Positions 10,966 to 22,513 of a stretch of 64,000 bases of DNA are shown in pieces. Under the pieces are notes generated by a model that was not told where the DNA came from, did no database searches, and was given only the letters and a program-made list of their open reading frames with translations. Source of the DNA: Phanerochaete sordida (Eukaryota > Basidiomycota > Agaricomycetes > Polyporales > Phanerochaetaceae); contig BPQB01000037.1 of the NCBI GenBank assembly GCA_019973155.2, positions 124,001-188,000 of the forward strand, read 5' to 3'. The position numbers were made by a program, and so were the translations under genes. Numbering within the stretch: position 1 is the first letter of the stretch; the number at the start of each line of letters is the position of its first letter.

Positions 10966-12047
10966 GGCGAGGGGAAGACGAGGGCTGGACGTCGACTCGT
11001 CGACTGCGAATAGGTTGGGGTTGGGGAAAATCCAGCTTGTTGACCTTATACCCTCCCAGCGCTGTGGTGATGCGAATAGAAGGAGCTGGTGATCTGCTTC
11101 AATGCTTCGATCTAATTCTGCATCATCAATTGCCTTTATAAGATCCATACCGAGTAGCAAAGCCAAGTCATGAACGGCGAGGTTTCTTGCCTCGTACTAA
11201 GAGACTGGACCTGACATCAGCCTACGCCGGAACGATGTCGGCGGCCACCGATTTCTATAGGCATGCCTACGGTGTACTACACAAGCCAGTTAGCAAGGAA
11301 AGGCAATAATTGGCGTGGAACGGTCGCACCTCAGAAAGGCTTCAGCCCTTGCTTCCTTTCGAGTTCGAAAGAGAAGACGAGGCGCAGATCAGCCGTACAC
11401 GGGGACGCATCAGAGCCCACAGAATCGGTGATGTTTCAATCCGCAGACAGATGTTGGCCAAACGGGGACGCAGGGGGCGTCCGTGAAGGACAATGTCGCG
11501 CTTCAAGTTCAAGCTACGCTTGAGGATGACGTCCTTCAACCTTACGAAGAGGCCCTGCTGAGACTCAAGCGATATTATTATAGCAGTGCGGAATCATCCA
11601 AACCTTCGCCATTGACAACGCTGGTCACGACAGATTGTAGCGAATCTCAAAGCGAGAGTGAGCGAGATGGACGAAACGGATAATCGACAGCACTTACCAG
11701 ACATGGTTGAAGCCGTCCGCGGTGCCCTGCATTCTGCACTAGGCCGAATGCATCCGCGCACAGCGCACTAAGGTGCTGCGAGTCAGCCGAGCGACAGAAT
11801 TAGAGGTGCGTAGAAAATCGCGTACGACGCAGACCTCGACAACGAACCGAAACGAGGCGCAGGATCAGCTAGACATCAGTAGACCGTGCCAAGTGAGCGG
11901 TGCGTGGCGAGCAGAGGTGCGTGCGGATATGTTACCGTCCGCCGTAGAGGCGTCTGAAGCACTGCAAGTCCTCGAACGGCGAAGCTTCGCTGAGCAAGTC
12001 GTGGGAAAGCCGTCTATAGTCGCCTCCCGGTTGCGTTCCTAGCTTGT
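10966..12047. other. Intergenic region
   Basis: No supported gene. The frame of the MYND paralogue stays open through to 11,166 without family similarity. Small frames at 11,342-11,683 and 11,773-12,042 have no recognisable content. Confidence 0.45.
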
Positions 12048-12833
12048 CTAATTCCTTTTTGCAATCGCGCTGGCATCCTCATACAGCTTGAAGACGTCCT
12101 CTAGCGTGAGAGTCCCGTTCACGACGTCCCGTACGAGCTCATCCCAGCCATGAACGGCCGGTTCCGCGCTGACAGGCCCAGGCAGGCCGTAGCGCTCAGC
12201 GCGCTGATAGGTCATGTCGAAGCGGAAGATCACCTCGGCGACGCCGACGTCGCCTTCTTGAGCCCACATGCTGAGGTCGCTGTTTCCCATTTTGAGACCC
12301 CCGAGATGCGCTGTCTCCGTGTTTGGGAATGTGCGCGGCTGCATTATGTAGAAGGGCGACGGCGCAGCGCCTCCGATGCGCCCTGCGCTGATGACATCGA
12401 CGAGCAGATGGTGGGTGCCCGTGCGGTTCACGCCATCGCGTAACAGCGCTTCGGAACAGACCCATTCGAAGATTGGTCTGTACTCCTATGCGGAGCGTCA
12501 GTCCGGGACGGGATTGCGGGAGGATGTGCGTACGTATAACCATGCGCTTATATCGACCAATTGCGGGTCGCGGCATATTTTCTTGTGCTTCTGCCAGTCA
12601 GCGGACTGACATTCTTTCGACTAGGTGGTAGAAACATACGTTTAAACGACGAGGAAATGAGCTGAGACAACACAGGGGCTTACGCAATATCGCACAAACT
12701 TGCATTTTGCGCAGGCTTTCATCTTCAGGCCCTTATATTCCGGATGGTTCGGGCAGTCGCGTGCCTGGCAGCCTAGCTTGAAAGCCTTTGGATCCTGCAC
12801 GGCGAAGCCTGTGGTGCTGTCATAGATTGGCAT
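12048..12833 (-). CDS. Small MYND-finger protein
   Basis: Three exons. Exon 1 begins MPIYDSTTGFAVQDPK and carries CQARDCPNHPEYKGLK then ACAKCKFVRYC. After an intron (GTAAGC...GTCAG), exon 2 gives SADWQKHKKICRD, completing a canonical MYND pattern (CxxC...YCSxxxWxxHKxxC). Exon 3 encodes about 140 residues, ending in DVFKLYEDASAIAKRN. The protein is about 215 residues and differs from the two larger MYND genes: the finger is near the N-terminus and the long helical domain is absent. No enzymatic domain is visible. Its promoter side faces the gene relicts at 13.1-13.4 kb. Confidence 0.75.
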
Positions 12834-13079
12834 CGCTGGTGGCCAGCTCGTTGCCTATAACACTCAGGCAAGTCGTTGGTGGTTCGGAAGCAAAATGATT
12901 TGAGGTCTCAGTTAGGTAGCGCCTGCTTATGTAAGATAGCGACAGCTTCTTGCAATTGCGAGCAGTGAACGAAGCTAGCCGTGGATGACGGGCTATAGAG
13001 GCAAGTACATGTCAGAAAGCCTGGATCTGGAGCGGAGCAGAAGCTTACTCTGAAGTGCACGCTCATGCGCCCGACTTTG

Positions 13080-13215
13080 GCGTATACCAATCGGAATATT
13101 CAAAAATTCCCGAATGAAGTTGGGATCCTCCTGGGTAATTTGGACGTCCGCGAGGCGTTGTCGCAGAGGACCAGCAGCCAGCCCCAAGATCCGCCCTCCT
13201 TTCGACCACCGCCAC
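13080..13215 (-). pseudogene. Relict of the 151-residue family
   Basis: On the minus strand, recognisable pieces are LLVLCDNAS, a DVQIT.EDPNFIREFLNIP block and a truncated IGY. They match copy C at 30,688 more closely than copies A and B (CAAATAACCC and GGGAATTTCTGAACATTCCG in copy C, diverged here). About 19 bp are missing between LNIP and WY, and the reading frame shifts between blocks, so it cannot encode the full protein. Confidence 0.7.
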
Positions 13216-13227
13216 TCACATTGTGTG

Positions 13228-13330
13228 AACTCTGAACAGATATCAACGACAATTTCCTGGAGAAGAGCTGTTTTGCGCTGGGCACCGAAGAGTCTGACGA
13301 TGAGGTGACCGGGCTTTAGACCACAACAAG
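13228..13330 (+). pseudogene. Relict of the 411-residue D...ExK gene
   Basis: This stretch aligns with 3388-3485 of the intact gene, covering the segment that reads roughly LRTDFIKRFAKRSWYTLGTEESDDELNKLWTTT. Here the key piece is LGTEESDDEVTGL followed by an in-frame TAG. Only about 100 bp remain, followed by 25-30 bp resembling the intact gene's downstream flank at 3955-3990. It is a decayed fragment next to the relict of the 151-residue gene. Confidence 0.7.
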
Positions 13331-13413
13331 CAGTCGCAGGCGCAGCCGCCGCCACCTTGTCAAGCCTTGTCAATATACTCCCCAGAAGGCCGGTCCTCCG
13401 CTAGCGATGTGGG

Positions 13414-13545
13414 ACACAGTGTAGTCTCGTCCCCAGCCATTCCTGGCATTGACCGGCTAAGGCCGGGCGGGACCACGTCGGACTTCGAAAAACCGAAGTC
13501 GGGTCCCATGCCAGAATGTCTGGTGAAAGTCGGCCAGACGGGTGT
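13414..13545 (+). repeat. Left inverted end of the 7-kb element (outer part)
   Basis: Matches the reverse complement of about 20,283-20,418. Similarity resumes after the 420-bp insertion at 13,966-13,992. The core CGTCGGACTTCGAAAAA is nearly unchanged between ends, with more divergence on either side, and the whole is roughly two-thirds identical by eye. Confidence 0.7.
13537..13545. repeat. Target-site duplication, left copy
   Basis: GACGGGTGT immediately outside the left terminal inverted repeat, identical to 13,966-13,974. Confidence 0.8.
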
Positions 13546-13596
13546 GGATGGTAAGCCCGCACAAGCTCCTGCCTTATTTGGACATCACGTGACAAA

Positions 13597-13615
13597 CGCG
13601 GCCCGGAGGGCCGCG
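13597..13615. other. Perfect hairpin, 8-bp stem
   Basis: CGCGGCCC-GGA-GGGCCGCG, a perfect 8-bp stem with a 3-nt loop, just inside the left terminal inverted repeat and upstream of the telomere-like tract. Confidence 0.7.
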
Positions 13616-13630
13616 AGAACATATACTTAG

Positions 13631-13727
13631 ATAACCCGAAAGCCCTAATCCCTAAGCCCTAAAACCCTAAAACTAATCCCTAAAACTAAAGCCCTAAAGC
13701 CTTAAAACCCTAAAGCCCTAAACCCGG
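13631..13727. repeat. Degenerate telomere-like tract
   Basis: Eight CCCTAA units in about 97 bp, in variants CCCTAA, CCCTAAA and CCCTAAAA joined by short AG or AACTAAT spacers. Fungal telomeres are usually CCCTAA/TTAGGG, so this resembles a decayed interstitial telomeric sequence. It lies entirely inside the 420-bp TIR element. Confidence 0.75.
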
Positions 13728-13734
13728 ACCTAAA

Positions 13735-13756
13735 GCGGCGCGCTGACGCGCGCCGC
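13735..13756. other. Perfect hairpin, 9-bp stem
   Basis: GCGGCGCGC-TGAC-GCGCGCCGC, a perfect 9-bp stem with a 4-nt loop directly after the telomere-like tract. With the hairpin at 13,597-13,615 it brackets the tract. Confidence 0.7.
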
Positions 13757-13965
13757 GGCGAGAACCAAAAAGTAAAACCCTGCCGGGGATCGAGACCCCG
13801 CGCCGCTGACAGCGCTCACGCTTAGCCGATAGTCTACGGCGTCGCATAAACCGAAACGCCCACGGTCGGCTATATCCCATCTCGGCGCTTACGCGCGTGG
13901 AAAGCTCTCGACGCGCCTTCACGTGATGTCCATATAAGGCAGGAGCTTGTTTGGGCTTACCCACC

Positions 13966-13974
13966 GACGGGTGT
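13966..13974. repeat. Target-site duplication, right copy
   Basis: GACGGGTGT immediately outside the right terminal inverted repeat, followed by AGCTCG as in the unsplit right end of the 7-kb element. Confidence 0.8.
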
Positions 13975-14096
13975 AGCTCGAGCGCACGTGACTGGCGCTT
14001 GTGCGCTCTCAGGCCCCGCGAGCCAAGTCCAACGCTTGCGCTCCGCCTTGACCTTTGTCTGTACCTACCGCAAATACACATCTCCTGGTACCTCTC

Positions 14097-16956
14097 ATGC
14101 CTTTCGAAGACTCTGACGAGCCTGTGGAGAGCCCCATTGAAGACGATTTGGAGCCAGGAGACGATGAGTACTTCGACGACGAGGATGAGCGCGACTACGC
14201 TCCTCGTCAACCTCCGGTTGCCTGCCAGACCACGGAGGCCTTCAAGCAGTTCCACCGTGCGCAAGGGACGACTGGCGAGCAGTTCTGTGAGAAGGTCCGC
14301 GACATCATTGAGTACATGGAGAAGCAGCAGATGAATACTGCGCTCTTCCTCCACCATCTCCTCTGGAACACGGCAGAGGTCATCTCGGACACCAAATGCC
14401 AGTACGAGCGCACCTCCCTTACCCACAGCGCAGAACTACCCGGAGTTCTACGCAACTTATACCGCCCTCCGCGCAAGCACGGTCGCGGGTACCGTGCCAA
14501 GGGCGCGGCTCACGCGATGACCGAAGTCGCGAAGGAGATCATTGCGCGAGAGGTCAACAACGAGATGCGCGCCCTTCGGCCCATCATGGAGGCCCAGCCA
14601 GAGGACTTTAACGAGGAATCTCTCCTCAAGATCACCCTGGACGAGATGATTCCGCAGGTGAAAGCTGCTGCACCGACCTGGTGGTCCATTTGCAACACCG
14701 CGGCCTTCACTCCGAAGCAAGCTGCTAGGAACACCAAGAAGTCAAGCCCGGACACGGTGAGTACTCTCCCATGTGCACGGGATGTTTTCTTATGCATCAG
14801 CGTGCCCTAGGCTATCCTTATGGTGACTGCAATCGTCTGCTTCAGTCGCTCTGTGCACCGCTGCAAGCTGCAGCAGCTGTGCAGTGCGTATCTCAAGGCT
14901 TGCGGTCTCAAATCACGGGCATTCGACACCCTTCACGCGCTCTATTTTTGCATGAGCCAGAAGACCGTCTACAACGCGCTCGACAGGATCGCGGAGAGCG
15001 CGCAGGCACAGATGCGCGAAGATGTCAAACAATACCCTGTCCGAGGAACACATGACAACATCAACATTCGCTTCCAGTCCTACGAGCAGCGCACCGACAA
15101 TAAGACCCATTTCGACAGTGGAACGGCGGCGACCGTTTATCCAGTCAAGGATCCCAACGCCGTCGCCCCGAGCCCCACCGCATATCAAGCAAAGCGCGCT
15201 GCTGGCGCAAAGGACCCCATCAGCCCCTTCACTGTCATCGATCTCGAGGACAAGGCCAGCCCGCAGATACACTCCCGCGCCGTTCATCAGATCCTGCGCT
15301 TCCTCATCGACTCAGAGCCATTCGACCTCCGGACTTACAAGTTCAAGGACTCTGGGCTCTTCGAGCCGCCACCTCCCGTTCTCCAGCTGCCGACCGGCCC
15401 TGAACACGCACTTGTCCAGTACATGTGCGGGACAATTCACCAGGAGGAGGCCTCGTACGAGGGCAACGAGAAATGCATCCGCGAGTGGATGCGACAGCTC
15501 GGGCTCAGTGCCCCTGAAGACATGCAGAAGATGTCCGAGGAGCAGCTCATTGTATGGATCGGCGACCAGCTCACTGCCTCTCGCATGCGCGGAATCAAGC
15601 GCTTTCGCGCACAGGATCTCAACTCGGTGCAACGCTTCGACTGGCTCATCGAGCAACCCGGATTTTTCCATTACATGATCAATCTCGGGTTCTCGTTCCA
15701 CCACCAGTACTATGGCGTCCCCGGGAGCATGGGGCTCAAGCATGCGATCGACGTTCTTGATCGCAAGAACCTGGCCAAGCCCTCTGTACAAGGCACCTTC
15801 CATCATAATCTCGACGAGCTTCTCCATCATGTCGCAGAAGCTCACTTCCGCGACGCTGCATGCGCCTTAGCAGGCGTCGATTCTCTGCAGGATCTGCGCG
15901 AGCGTTCTCCAGAAGCGCTCACCGAGCTTGCGAACGAGATCTGGACAAAGCTGGCATCCACCCAAGCTCTGGAGGAGCTGCGCAGTAAGAAGGCTCGCGA
16001 CGAGGTCCACGAGCAGTCAGTAATGTTCAACCGCGACATCCTTGACTATCTGGACCTCGACGATGCTATCCGACATGGCGACGTCGGCCGTGTTCGGAAT
16101 CTGCTCCCCCGCCTACTGTTCCGCTTCATTGGAGGTGGTCACTCTAATTACGTGACCGAAACACTAGAGCTGATTCAGGCCCTCGAATGCGAATGGCCTG
16201 ATGACCTCAAGTAAGTCTTTCCGCGTATTTCTATGCGCTTGACATCTGATTTATTTCGCATCAGAGTTTGGATACTTCAGTACTGCTGGCTTGGAAACAC
16301 TACCGGCCGCGCCGGATGCTTCGCGCCATTCGATCTTATTCAAGAGCATAACATACGTGATATCAAAGTGTGTCTACCTCTCGGAACGCACAAATATACA
16401 CATGCTAACATTCTGGAAGCATATATTCGCCGTCTTTGGGCCGTATGCGACATGGAAGTATATCAAGAAGATCTCCGCCGCTATTCCTACCATGCGCAAG
16501 ATCAAGGACCATGTGGAGGCCGATATCAATCACTTCCGGCGCGGAAAGTCGCACACAAAGCCTGCAAAGGAAGCTGACGTTGCGAAGCTCCAGCGTGTGT
16601 ACGCCACGGGCAAGATCCACATCTATGACCAGAAGCGAACCCCTCTGAGCAAAGAGGGCAAGGCGAAGGACTACATGGAGAACGGCTCTAACTTCGACAC
16701 GCTGCAGACGACTATGAAGAAGTGGCTCGCGCGTCACGTATCAACGAGGGCGGAGACGCAAGATTGGACCGACTACGCCATGCTCGCGGCTATGAGCAAT
16801 GTTGCAGGCGGTACTGGTCGTGCAGACGATCAGCATCTCTCGTCTCCATCATCCTCACCTACTACGGGATCTAACATGAACGACGACACAGGGGACATAG
16901 CCGACCTTGAGATGGCGAGTGTCTCCTCCGATAGCTCGAGTCTTTCTTATGAGTAG
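14097..16956 (+). CDS. DUF6589 protein
   Basis: Four exons, 14097-14756, 14811-16210, 16265-16367 and 16420-16956, give about 899 residues in a consistent frame. The N-terminus is acidic (DDLEPGDDEYFDDEDERD). Exon 2 holds the recognisable DUF6589 core: KTVYNALDRIAESA, THDNINIRFQSYEQRTDN, FDWLIEQPGFFHYMINLGF and FIGGGHSNYVTETLELIQALECEWP. The core continues with APFDLIQEHNIRDIK and WKYIKKISAAIPTMRKIKDHVE after the introns, and the Ser-rich tail is probably disordered. The family is basidiomycete-rich and uncharacterised. Scattered conserved Asp, Asn and Glu residues (HDN, TDN, QEHN) are compatible with a nuclease or transposase but prove nothing. The upstream region is one inverted end of the 7-kb element, so the gene is probably cargo or the mobility gene of that unit. 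Confidence 0.8.
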
Positions 16957-17018
16957 TACCGCCTCCGAAATATAATCTATTCATGTGTCGGCTACTTCCG
17001 ATACCCTATGAGCGGCAC

Positions 17019-20000
17019 CTATTGCAGAGGCTCCATGAATGGCTGCGAAGGCTTGGGGCGAGGTCGAGGCCGGGGCCGAGGCCGAGGTTTAGGCAGGTTT
17101 TGCTCTGAAGGTGTAACTGGCGTCTGGACGACTTGCTGCTGCGTATGCGCGTAGTATGCAGCGTATGCCTGTTGCTCATACGTTTGCTGGTTGTAGGCAT
17201 ATGCGTACGATGCCCTCGGATCGAGGTGCGGGGCATGGAGGGGCTGAGACGGCGGCATCTGCATATAATAGTATTGGTCAGTATGAGCAGCAGAAGACGT
17301 CCGCATCGACGCCGAATGTGCAGGCACATCGGATGGAAGTCCCGAAGGCACGGGTCCAGAGAGAGCAGCTCCAGACATAGATCCAGGCCAAGATTCCGAA
17401 GCGATAGGCTGAGGCAAGGGTTCGGGGCCAAGAGCAACAGCCTGGGACGGAGACATCGGGGGTATATTGCACGGTGCAGAGTTTGATGACGTTCGGTTTC
17501 TCTTGTTCTGCGTCTTCAGAAGTCCTTCTAGTCGTCGTTTCTCCTTACGTAGTTGATCTTTGCGTATACTTTCGACTTTCTTCAGCGCAGCTTTTTCGGC
17601 GGCAGCGGCAGCTCGCTCTTCTTTCCACTGGTCGTCGAAGGGCTTCAGAACAGCCAGAACCTCGAGACCATAGCCGTTCTTTTCGGCGTTGAGCCAGCCA
17701 GCTTTAGCCTTCAAGTCGTCGACAGTGAGCAGGTCCGCACGCTTTGCGATAGTTTCTAGGATGCGATCAGGAAGTATTGCACGATACCCAAGAGAGGACA
17801 GCGCATGGTTCTCCTTCCAGGTCCTCAAGCGCCAGCTTATCAGAGCGTTCTTGCAGTCAGTAAGGCGGGTTATGCCCTTCTTCTTCTCGTCTTTACGGGC
17901 CCCCAGTCCGGGGGGAAGCCTGGGTTTCTGAACCTTGGGCTTCGGTTCGAAGCGTTGGTTGAAGTAGTCGATAGCGTCCTGAAGTTCTTGTGCAAACTCG
18001 CCAGGCTCGAGCGTGGTCGCGTCTTGCGCCTGCATACAGTTGTCGCAGCACGGAACGGTCAATGCTACATGGAACGAATCAGTAGCGGCTTCAATACAGG
18101 CACGGCAAACGAGACCGCGGTGCCGTCCATGGACGCTTCGAGGGTTCACACAAAATTCACGTACGTTCCCGGATAGGAGGGTTATCAAAATACTTATCGA
18201 CTATTGCACGGCGACAGCCTGTGGTCGTTGCATACTCGCGCATGGCGGGCTCGATGACCCGCTTCTTTCTGTCCTTGGCGGACTTTGCAGGTGCCGGCTC
18301 TTCGTCATCCAGGGCGGCGCCTTCCGCAGCGTTGCACTCGGAGACATTGCTATACAAGTCTTCATCGTCACCGTCGAGATCTTGGTCTTCAGGCTCATCC
18401 TCTGCGCCTTGAACTGATTCAACGTCGCTGGTGGGATCGCCAACGATCGCTTGAGAAGCGGTATCGGGTGCAGGTAACATGTCTTTCTCTATGACAGAGT
18501 CGGACGCCGGGGCATCTGCACAGAAGTAAATCAGCAGTTATAGCATAACGAAGACGGGATGCGCAGGCGAGAACGATTTATTGAGAGCATACGGCTTACC
18601 CTGAGATATGTCCGCGCTGGGGGTCGACGTACCGACGTCTATGCCTTGCGGACATGAGGAGCCTTCAGTGGTGTCTTTATCTAGCGTGGCTTCGTCGCTC
18701 TTCTGCGCGTCGAGCGCGGCTTTTATTGCGGCCTTGAGATATGCTCGTGGAACAAGCTGTATCGCATAGGCTGGCTTTCCATCTCGTCCTATACGCCCCT
18801 TGTGCTGCAGGGACTCGGACAAAGATGCCGTGAGGTTGACCTGTAGCATGCGATACACGTTCCAAAGGTCTAGTCCCTATAAAGTAAATGTGATGAATAA
18901 CGACGAGGCGTCTGAAAACGCAAATGTGTGCACCATGCCGGCAATTTCTGTAGTAAGGAGCACGTTGATTATTCTCTTACGGAAGTCCATGAGGACCTTG
19001 ATGCGCGCAGAAACATCTCGTCCAGCGTTGAGAAAGTCAATTTGTGCCCGCAGGGACGAGCCCTCGGGAAGGCACTCGCGCAGGCGCAGGCAAAACGTCT
19101 GCGCGTCGTCGCGGTTCAGGACATAGATGAGCGTCCGCTTTAGCGGCTGCCCTTCGACCGCGTCATGGATAACGAACTTGAGAGCCTCCCAGTCGGTGCC
19201 GGCCTTGATTGGGCACACGAGAGGCGTGATATTGGGGCGATTGTTGCCTAGATTGAGCTGAAGCGTCCGGTTAGAGCGAAGATGGAGGATCGTCTTGACA
19301 CTCTGAATAGTGTCAGGTGTCATTGTAGCGGAGGTAGCGAGTATGGGGATGTTAAGGTCGACCAGCGAACGCAAAGACCCGAGCTTCGCGAAGAGCGGCC
19401 GGAAAGCGTTCCCGGACCACTGAGTAATGGTATGGGCTTCATCTGCAATGATGCACACGACGTCGCGCATGACTTCTGGCGTATGCGCAACTTCATGGAA
19501 CTCTGTCTTCTCGAAGAGCTGCTCTGGCGAGGTGAGGAGCACTCTGAACTCTCGGGCAAGGATTTTCTACAAATATCGTCAGAATGTCGGTGTATATTGG
19601 GAGAGCATCTGCGCACCTCTTTCAGCTCCTTATTCCATGTCGTACCGTTCACTGCAGCTGCACTAATCCCTGCATCTCTAAACCGTTGAGCCTGGGGTTC
19701 GAATTCGAACATATAAGCTGGGTATATGCGCCGGGGAAGCACAAGGCATACCTGATCTCGCTGGAGCTCGTTGAGTGGAGACACAATGAGAACCATCTTC
19801 TCCGCGTTCTCTGGAAGCAGTACTGGCATGACAAAAGGTAGCGTCTTTCCTGCGCCTGTGCCCGCAACGAGCACAATGTCGAGTCCGAGCGCGAGGGCCT
19901 CTCCAATGTCCAGCTGCCATTCCCGTGGCGGCCAGCCAAAGGCAGCTTTGATTCGCTCTGTCAGCCACGCACGGACGGCTGTGGAGTCGTAGCCTTTCGA

Positions 20001-20090
20001 CTTCGTAGCCTTCTTGCGTGCTGCCTCGAGGAGCTGGTAGAAAAGCTCTTGGTTCTGCGGGGAACTGCTCGGGGACGTGTTACTGGACAT
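17019..20090 (-). CDS. RecQ-like DNA helicase
   Basis: Starts MSSNTSPSSSPQNQELF; an upstream in-frame ATG at 20,108 is possible. Seven or so exons. Helicase motifs in order: WPPREWQLDIGEAL (motif 0), VAGTGAGKT (Walker A), VSPLNELQRDQ, ADEAH (motif II), ATSATM (III), LIYVLNRDDAQTF (IV), TEIAGMGLDLWNV (V, across an intron) and HKGRIGRDG (VI). A RecQ-type zinc module follows: GCRRAIVDKYF then CCDNCMQ, joined if the 93-nt stretch near 18,075-18,165 is spliced out. The C-terminal third is Lys/Glu coiled, then Gln/Tyr/Pro-rich and ends in Pro-Arg repeats. ATP-dependent DNA unwinding is expected. It converges on the DUF6589 gene, with which it shares an inverted upstream region. Confidence 0.85.
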
Positions 20091-20264
20091 TCCGCGCAAT
20101 TTGACCAAGGCTCTCGATGGATTAAATTAGGTAGAATAGTGCGGACGCATATTAGACACGTCTAAGTGGAATATGGTGGGGGTGGAGAGCGTAGAGGGAG
20201 AGTGAGGCGAGGGAGAGGTGAGCGGCAGCCCGTCCTTAATGAGCTCGAAGCCTTGCGCGACGAG

Positions 20265-20418
20265 GTCACGTGCGCGCGAGCTACACCCGTCGCATCGAAA
20301 GTGACCAGCTGACATTCTAAGCAGAGACCGCACTTCGCTTTTTCGAAGTCCGACGCGGTCCCCACGGCTTCTCCCGGTGGCTGCTTAGGATGTCTGGGAA
20401 CGAGACTAGACACAGTGG
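20265..20418 (-). repeat. Right inverted end of the 7-kb element
   Basis: The reverse complement aligns with the left end in two parts, 13,414-13,545 and 13,966-13,992, with no 420-bp insert between them. It contains a single ACACCCGTC (20,283-20,291), equivalent to the target of the TIR element. Confidence 0.7.
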
Positions 20419-20892
20419 AACAGACTGACACGCGCCTTCGCTGGTCGAGACGAAGTCAGCGAATGGGACAATGATGTCATGGACTTGCTGGCCTGCCGCT
20501 CTACACGGCCTGGCTGAACGTAAGACGAGACGCCCGCTCGGGACCAGGGCCGCGCGCTCTTGGAGAAGTCGATGTCTGAAGAAGGTCGCAGGCCCGGCAT
20601 GTCAGTACACCACTGTCGATGTAAGCCTCTGACAGAGCTTGTCGGCACGTATGTCCACAAGCGACACCGAAAGCAGCTGAGAAAGATGGGAAGTGATTAT
20701 TGAAGCAATCCCAGAATATTGTACACGTGAACACGAAGGAGCGAAAGATGTAGCGTAGAAATGACGTGACGCACACAGAGCCACCAGAGGAAAGCAGGCG
20801 TCTAGAGAGATTCGACGGCAACCGGAAAGACGATATGCATGAAGCAGGAGTTTGACGCGAACATTTGAGACCGAGACGGGGGCGACATACAC
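20419..20892. other. Spacer between 7-kb element and zinc-protein gene
   Basis: No gene supported; minus-strand frames here have no recognisable motifs. Includes the 3' flank of the Cys-rich gene. Confidence 0.45.
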
Positions 20893-21680
20893 TCAACACG
20901 TGGCCTGGCGGTCAATACAATCAAGGCAGGCGGTCGAGTGGCTATGTTTTCAATAAGCCGGTGCCGCAGATGCGAAGACTGCATGTACACACCTCAAAGG
21001 ATCCTCCACAACACAACTCTTACAAAACACCTCCTCGCATCCGGCGATATTTGACAGTCCTTGATGAGCATTCATGGGGTCGTCTACGTCCTGACGAGCT
21101 TTCGGTGGCGGTGTATCCTCGACAGATGCAGATGACAGTCTTCGTTTATGATAACGTGGTGAAGGTGCCTGTGCGTGCACGGGTGGGTGCGCTACAAGCG
21201 TGCCAGAGTTGCATGCGTTCAAGGGTGGCCTTCCAGGAGAGGCAGAGTGCAATCGCGTGCTTGATGGTAGGGAGCCGCCTTCACAGGTACGAGAACATAT
21301 CGCGCAGGTCGTTGACTTGCATCTAGAGCATGGTAGGAGAAAAATTAGTCCAAGCTCTGCGTGCATGGCGCCAGTACGCACCTCGGACAGACAAGCATCG
21401 GCGCAACCCCACGCGTCGCGAGCGCTCTCCTCCCACACGACTTGCACGCAGCGCGTGCTGGCGAGTTTAGACCACCCGTACATTGGAGCTTCGTCATGTC
21501 GATGACGGCTGTTGCTGCCCCGAGCGGCGCAGACTCCTGCCACCCGCATGCTGGGTCCAGCACGCGAACCGGCAGCTCGCCGCAGGGCACGCCATCCTGG
21601 AAGATCGTCTTCGAGAGCGAGGGTGCGTCGAGCTTACGACGCTTGTGTATATGCGCAGGAGCGCGGTGAGAGGGCGACAT
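20893..21680 (-). CDS. Cys-rich zinc-ribbon/PHD-like protein
   Basis: Three exons. Exon 1 begins MSPSHRAPAHIHKRRKLD and contains DGVPCGELPVRVLDPACGW, VIDMTKLQCTGG, ACKSCGR and MLVCPR. Exon 2 gives CKSTTCAICSRTC, a low-complexity spacer (HKRRLSSASVEDTPPPKAR) and GCEEVFCKSCVVED. Exon 3 is a short HSTACLDCIDRQATC with stop. The spaced Cys pairs (CxxC...CxxC...CxxC) suggest two or three zinc sites resembling a degenerate zinc ribbon or PHD-type finger. The basic N-terminal KRRKLD could be a nuclear signal. About 220 residues; the specific role is unknown. Confidence 0.75.
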
Positions 21681-22513
21681 GGGAGGGAGGGAAGGAGTGT
21701 GGTGAAGTTGGTCGAAGGGAACGAACGAGGGCGCCCAAGCGCATTTGCCGCGCCTAAAGGCTGTCCAAACTCCGATGCCTTCGTGGCGCGGTAATATCCG
21801 GAATCCGATAAGTCCCGTTTACTTACCGAGATAAGTAGCGAACACTTAAGTACCCGCTGCTAAGGCAGCCTCAAGGCCCCATGCTTGATATCCTGCCAGC
21901 ATTCACTTCAAACTCGTGAAACATATTCTATGCGCTTCTAATGCGCAAGATATGTAGGCAATTATGCGGCCCATATGATGACGTATGTGCTCGTTCAAGT
22001 CACTTAGCCCGGTGCATAACTGATGCACAGTAAGGTCCGCGAGGTGTTTCCATCATCAGAGTGGCAATGGGCGAGGACTCAAACGAATCGAATATATAGC
22101 CACCGCAGCCAGCCAAGTAGATGAGAAGATCCGGGTATGGAGACGGAGGGAGGGGTATATATTCGTTCTGACTGGCATCACTACACCATCTGTAAATACT
22201 ATCCGAGCGAAGGGCGTGACCTGATATTCTCGTAGCAAGGGCGTTACAGAAGGTCAGGAAGCGAGTATAAGGCTGGTGAGATTCAGAAACTAAGACCAGA
22301 ACGCGGAAAGTCAAGACTACGTAACGTAAGAGGGGATTGGTACACGAGAAGGCGGATCCATTACTGAGGATAGACATGCGATAAAGGAGCGTGGGTGGCG
22401 CGAAGATTCGCGGCGTGGGCGACCTGGATAAGAATAGCGTGGAGATACTTAAACAGGGGCACGTAAACAAGAAGAAAGAAAACATGTCCGAAGAGAGGGA
22501 GAATAAACGCAGC
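21681..22513. other. Intergenic region
   Basis: Promoter side of the Cys-rich gene and 3' flank of the epsin gene. Composition is less GC-rich than coding sequence. A long minus-strand frame at 22,000-22,965 is Arg/Ser-rich shadow sequence of the epsin coding strand and its flank. Confidence 0.5.

Follow-up and report, generated by a model that had tools for sequence, protein, structure and literature searches.

A low-copy DNA transposon of Phanerochaete sordida, probably of the AcademH kind, with convergent DUF6589 and RecQ-family helicase genes

The locus and its genes

The stretch of DNA analysed here, referred to as the window, is 64 kb long and comes from the white-rot fungus Phanerochaete sordida (C37:124,001-188,000, contigs being cited as C plus a number). 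It contains an element of 6,987 bp at 13,422-20,408, bounded by inverted ends and a 9-bp duplication, within which two open genes converge: a DUF6589 gene and a RecQ-family helicase gene. This is the arrangement that an earlier sequence-only reading of the window had described.

The DUF6589 gene (14,097-16,956, plus strand) was modelled with four exons (14,097-14,756, 14,811-16,210, 16,265-16,367 and 16,420-16,956), separated by GT-AG introns of 52-54 bp. It encodes 899 aa without an internal stop and is 100% identical over this length to the public P. sordida protein PsYK624_102570. The main exon matched Pfam PF20231 at 8.2e-95, which was the only Pfam family detected in the DUF6589 proteins scanned. 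A public protein search gave 94 matches.

The predicted fold of the protein is that of an RNase-H-fold transposase, with hAT (Hermes) and the P element as best matches; Foldseek on its own was not decisive. A large insertion precedes the last acidic residue, as in Hermes, the P element and RAG1/Transib. The proposed catalytic triad is D302, D472 and E714, and H507 is conserved. It is strongly suggested that the DUF6589 protein is the DDE transposase. Its role as a mobility protein, put forward in the sequence-only reading, is likely; the structural comparison proposed there did return RNase H-fold transposases.

The helicase gene (17,019-20,090, minus strand) was modelled with six exons (20,090-19,752, 19,691-19,617, 19,566-18,934, 18,876-18,600, 18,515-18,165 and 18,064-17,019), encoding 906 aa without an internal stop. 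The public model is 895 aa long and 99% identical. The Pfam domains DEAD (1.1e-20) and Helicase_C (3.5e-11) were found, and RecQ_Zn_bind (3.5e-5) fell narrowly below the cut-off (24.9 vs 25 bits). All 28 matches of the main exon to PDB sequences were WRN, RECQ5, BLM or RecQ-type helicases. At least 33 protein matches were obtained, against the 94 for DUF6589, so that close helicase relatives are rarer among the matches listed.

Inverted ends and target duplication

The limits of the element were read outward from its inverted arms to the flanking duplication. A general repeat scan of positions 12,000-22,000 recovered two arm pairs, one of 57 nt (13,469-13,525 / 20,306-20,362, 79% complementary) and one of 28 nt (13,965-13,992 / 20,265-20,292, 96% complementary), in agreement with the inverted homologous ends noted before. 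The terminal inverted repeats start TAGTCTCGT. The left one consists of an outer part (13,422-13,545, plus strand), starting TAGTCTCGTCCCCAG, and an inner part (13,966-13,992, plus strand) displaced by a miniature inverted-repeat transposable element (MITE). The right one (20,263-20,408) starts TAGTCTCGTTCCCAG on the minus strand. Both termini open with TAGTCTCGTYCCCAG, and each is flanked by the 9-mer GACACAGTG, which forms the left (13,413-13,421) and the right (20,409-20,417) target-site duplication on the plus strand. This 9-mer occurs only twice in the window, both strands considered, each time abutting an element end. The limits proposed earlier (13,414-20,418) differ from element plus duplication by a base or two at most.

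A single-strand hairpin was predicted for the left outer repeat (z -5.2) and for the right repeat (z -3.7). Among seven end sequences, two of them near-identical, six folded better than 200 of 200 shuffles (z -3.7 to -7.1), and the seventh folded more weakly (z -2.6, matched by 2 of 200 shuffles). The genes start about 0.25 kb from one end, when the MITE and one copy of its duplication are discounted, and 0.32 kb from the other; the ends could therefore double as putative promoters.

Copies elsewhere in the genome

The genome scanned comprises 40.8 Mb in 222 contigs. The right end of the window element gave 16 matches at 10 places. Both ends were present at nine of these, all nine with an exact 9-bp duplication, and the match on C156 has one end only. 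Within this end family, PF20231 was matched on C37 only. A second end family, derived from the DUF6589 locus at C20:460k, comprises four elements (C20:460k, C1, C110 and C20:84k), all with 9-bp duplications, and a single-ended match on C75. Ends were also found at the DUF6589 loci C2:650k (10-bp duplication), C26 (8 bp) and C189 (9 bp, weaker). The ends at C26 had a score of 3, reached by none of 100 shuffles, with a duplication of only 8 bp; those at C189 had a score of 5, reached by 1 of 100 shuffles, and are set in a longer direct repeat. At C9:426k the scan for ends was confined to the gene pair and had no control of its own, and this locus was excluded from the count. Ends looked for at C12, C30, C152 and C213 were not found.

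Altogether, 16 elements have both ends, with a duplication of 9 bp in 14 of them, 10 bp in one and 8 bp in one. They were collected by their ends, a sample in which old copies that have lost their ends are not represented. In a control with the ends misplaced by up to 30 bases, a 9-bp match was found in 5 of 58,560 placements; the 9-bp duplications are therefore not due to chance. The proposal of a mobile element is well borne out by these 16 cases with exact 8-10 bp duplications. Ten of them are short (341-1,926 bp). Ends without the two genes, which had been named as a finding that would speak against the proposal, do occur, but the copies concerned are short derivatives, sharing both the ends and the 9-bp duplications, and not an unrelated dispersed repeat.

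The C20:460k element (L054:3241-6951) is 3.7 kb long and has DUF6589; its ends agree at 99 of the first 100 positions, and it is perhaps a rather recent insertion. The elements on C1, C110 and C20:84k are shorter relatives of it. For the short element on C9, an origin as an internal deletion of the window element was rejected, the similarity being confined to the end regions; elements on C3 and C36 are related to it over their whole length (75-81%).

Nested MITE and contig position

The MITE in the left end measures 420 bp (13,546-13,965) and has inverted arms of 43 nt. It is flanked by its own 9-bp duplication, GACGGGTGT, at 13,537-13,545 and 13,966-13,974. The termini of its family are GGATGGTAAGCCC/GGTGGGTAAGCCC, and 9-bp duplications were present at all five of the closest copies (97-100% identity, window copy included), which were the ones assessed. 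The MITE contains degenerate CCCTAA-type repeats, with a telomere-like run at 13,632-13,716. This part has further matches at contig starts (C97, C121, C120, C56 and C91 among others), which are presumably telomeres.

Some fungi have RecQ helicases at their telomeres. This, together with the telomere-like run, would suit a subtelomeric helicase unit (TLH/Y'-like), and a host gene pair with a duplicated promoter is another way to account for the locus other than as a transposon. Both the split of the left end and the telomere-like run are explained by insertion of a separate MITE, which takes away the chief indication that the element arose near a telomere. The element lies inside its contig (C37:137,422-144,408 of 312,387), about 137 kb from the nearer end of these 312 kb, and the DUF6589-helicase pair on C2 lies at about 650 kb within 1.57 Mb; neither is subtelomeric, unlike telomere-linked RecQ helicase units. 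The exact target duplications at 16 places are regarded as refuting both explanations, which we consider scarcely credible. The subtelomeric derivation suggested in the sequence-only reading is not supported.

Pairing of DUF6589 with a RecQ-like gene

DUF6589 gave 18 matches at 10 loci in the genome, and a convergent RecQ-like gene was found at seven of them: C37 (the window), C2, C26, C189, C12, C9 and C152. The last three partners were detected solely by a helicase C-terminal profile built from four helicases (window, C26, C189 and Hermanssonia), with E values, in a small database, of 7e-15 for C12, 1e-6 for C9 and 4e-6 for C152. Only the C-terminal part of the C12 partner is visible. The partners on C9 (L061:2-2203, minus strand) and C152 (L059:3549-5471, minus strand) gave no Pfam helicase match and carry DDVH at the expected DEAH position; the C9 partner matched solved RecQ weakly (E 0.0017). 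By their sequence these two are perhaps degenerate or repurposed helicases.

The pairing holds across DUF6589 proteins of 15-23% identity. Convergent pairs within inverted ends occur at non-homologous loci of this same genome, on C2 and C26 and, less firmly, on C189 and C9. In Hermanssonia centrifuga, a DUF6589 protein of 50% identity and the best helicase from outside Phanerochaete have consecutive locus numbers and lie on contigs of equal length; such a pair is probably present in this other genus as well. As for co-occurrence in other genomes, which had been predicted, the support comes from this one species, the sole one examined, and from locus numbers. That the pair has persisted at such low identity, and probably also outside Phanerochaete, speaks for a retained function, and the helicase recurs as the partner that it had been taken for.

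Alternatively, the helicase could be a passenger with a use of its own, not part of transposition. The 3.7-kb C20:460k element keeps DUF6589 and gave no significant helicase match, no helicase was found within about 8 kb downstream of the DUF6589 gene that begins at the start of contig C30, and the C9 and C152 partners look degenerate. Against this, the convergent pair has persisted across widely diverged DUF6589 proteins, and the C20 element may have arisen by deletion and been mobilised in trans. A passenger role is considered unlikely, although it deserves consideration.

For the C20:460k element no remnant of a helicase is claimed, since the profile E value (0.13) was comparable to that of an antisense chance match in the same search (0.16). 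On C1, where no DUF6589 match was found, the element belonging to this end family contains part of a helicase gene. On C27 an element (L051:4144-8720) has kept the helicase, with DUF6589 reduced to a piece and with some 1.9 kb of additional sequence separating the left end from the region upstream of the helicase. The 11.7-kb contig C213 (L053:6163-9756) has a partial DUF6589 gene and, about 2.5 kb away, a RecQ-like gene that is divergent rather than convergent, an order that may stem from the assembly or from a rearrangement.

Comparison with known transposons

AcademH belongs to the Academ superfamily, its founding paper reportedly being that of Kojima in 2020, and its helicase belongs to superfamily II. 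Target duplications are TTAA in Kolobok, 8 bp long in hAT and P and 5 bp long in Transib. Helitrons are rolling-circle elements without inverted ends or target duplication.

AcademH elements have duplications of 9 or 10 bp and AcademX elements of 3 or 4 bp, a difference linked to helicase and nuclease (PMC10045372). AcademH has been described as low-copy in Basidiomycota, Ascomycota and Mucoromycota (PMC10799480), and Academ is counted among the DDD/E superfamilies (PMC9587614). The window element shares with AcademH the length of the duplications (14 of 16 at 9 bp, one at 10 and one at 8), an encoded helicase (DEAD, Helicase_C, near-threshold RecQ_Zn_bind and RecQ-type PDB matches), terminal inverted repeats together with a DDD/E transposase, here indicated by predicted fold and triad, and a low copy number in Basidiomycota (10 DUF6589 loci in 40.8 Mb). 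The likeness is one of described features, and no Academ name appeared among the Pfam matches of the DUF6589 and helicase proteins scanned. Membership of the window element in AcademH is considered likely. The earlier suggestion of an undescribed element is not supported, a helicase-encoding lineage with 9/10-bp duplications, found in fungi, being already in the literature (PMC10045372, PMC10799480).

The family could instead be a helicase-bearing DDE superfamily separate from Academ, AcademH-like only in helicase and duplication length. The best fold matches of DUF6589, hAT and the P element, point in this direction. So does the lack of any animal name among 120 of at least 211 DUF6589 relatives listed, though AcademH is cited in animals, which weighs against the assignment to AcademH. 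On the other side, duplication length, helicase, low copy number and a basidiomycete host all agree with AcademH as cited, and a separate superfamily appears improbable.

Other known systems were compared as well. KolobokH, like the window element, is a DNA transposon of fungi that carries a RecQ helicase, which in KolobokH lies downstream of the transposase domain (PMC9587614). In the window the helicase is a separate convergent gene, and none of the 16 duplications is TTAA, all being 8-10 bp long and of varied sequence. KolobokH identity was excluded by duplication and gene layout. The predicted transposase fold is shared with hAT (Hermes), the P element and RAG1/Transib; unlike hAT and P, the elements described here have mostly 9-bp duplications and, in the DUF6589 proteins scanned, PF20231 as the only Pfam family. 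Helicase-carrying Helitrons are likewise mobile elements with a helicase, but differ from the window element, which has inverted ends and a target duplication.

Proposed mechanism and significance

The sequence shows terminal inverted repeats, a target duplication of 9 bp, two convergent open genes and short same-ended copies. Very likely the element is a class II (DDE) transposon of the AcademH kind, present in few copies and probably autonomous. In the proposed mechanism, the DUF6589 transposase would bind the inverted ends and excise the element, and would join it to the target with cuts staggered by 9-10 bp, two steps that are strongly suggested; host repair would then turn the stagger into the target duplication. 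The RecQ helicase, encoded at the opposite end of the element, would be a putative cofactor acting at palindromic ends or gapped junctions. Copies that are short (0.3-1.9 kb) or derived by deletion would be mobilised in trans.

On balance, we favour the view that DUF6589 is a Hermes/P/RAG-like family of DDE transposases, whose elements have kept a convergent RecQ-like helicase over very deep divergence, with recognisable ATPase motifs lost in some lineages. In that case it would be AcademH under another name in Pfam, or else a superfamily that is sister to AcademH. No earlier report linking DUF6589 to a DDE transposase was found in the literature searched. This link is the useful new part, the kind of element itself being already known. 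It provides a likely function for a Pfam family of unknown function, whose members are listed as hypothetical proteins in numerous mushroom genomes, and such DUF6589 genes can then be handled as genes of transposons. With a transposase-helicase pair that is apparently intact and lies between mapped ends, the role of RecQ in cut-and-paste transposition becomes directly testable.
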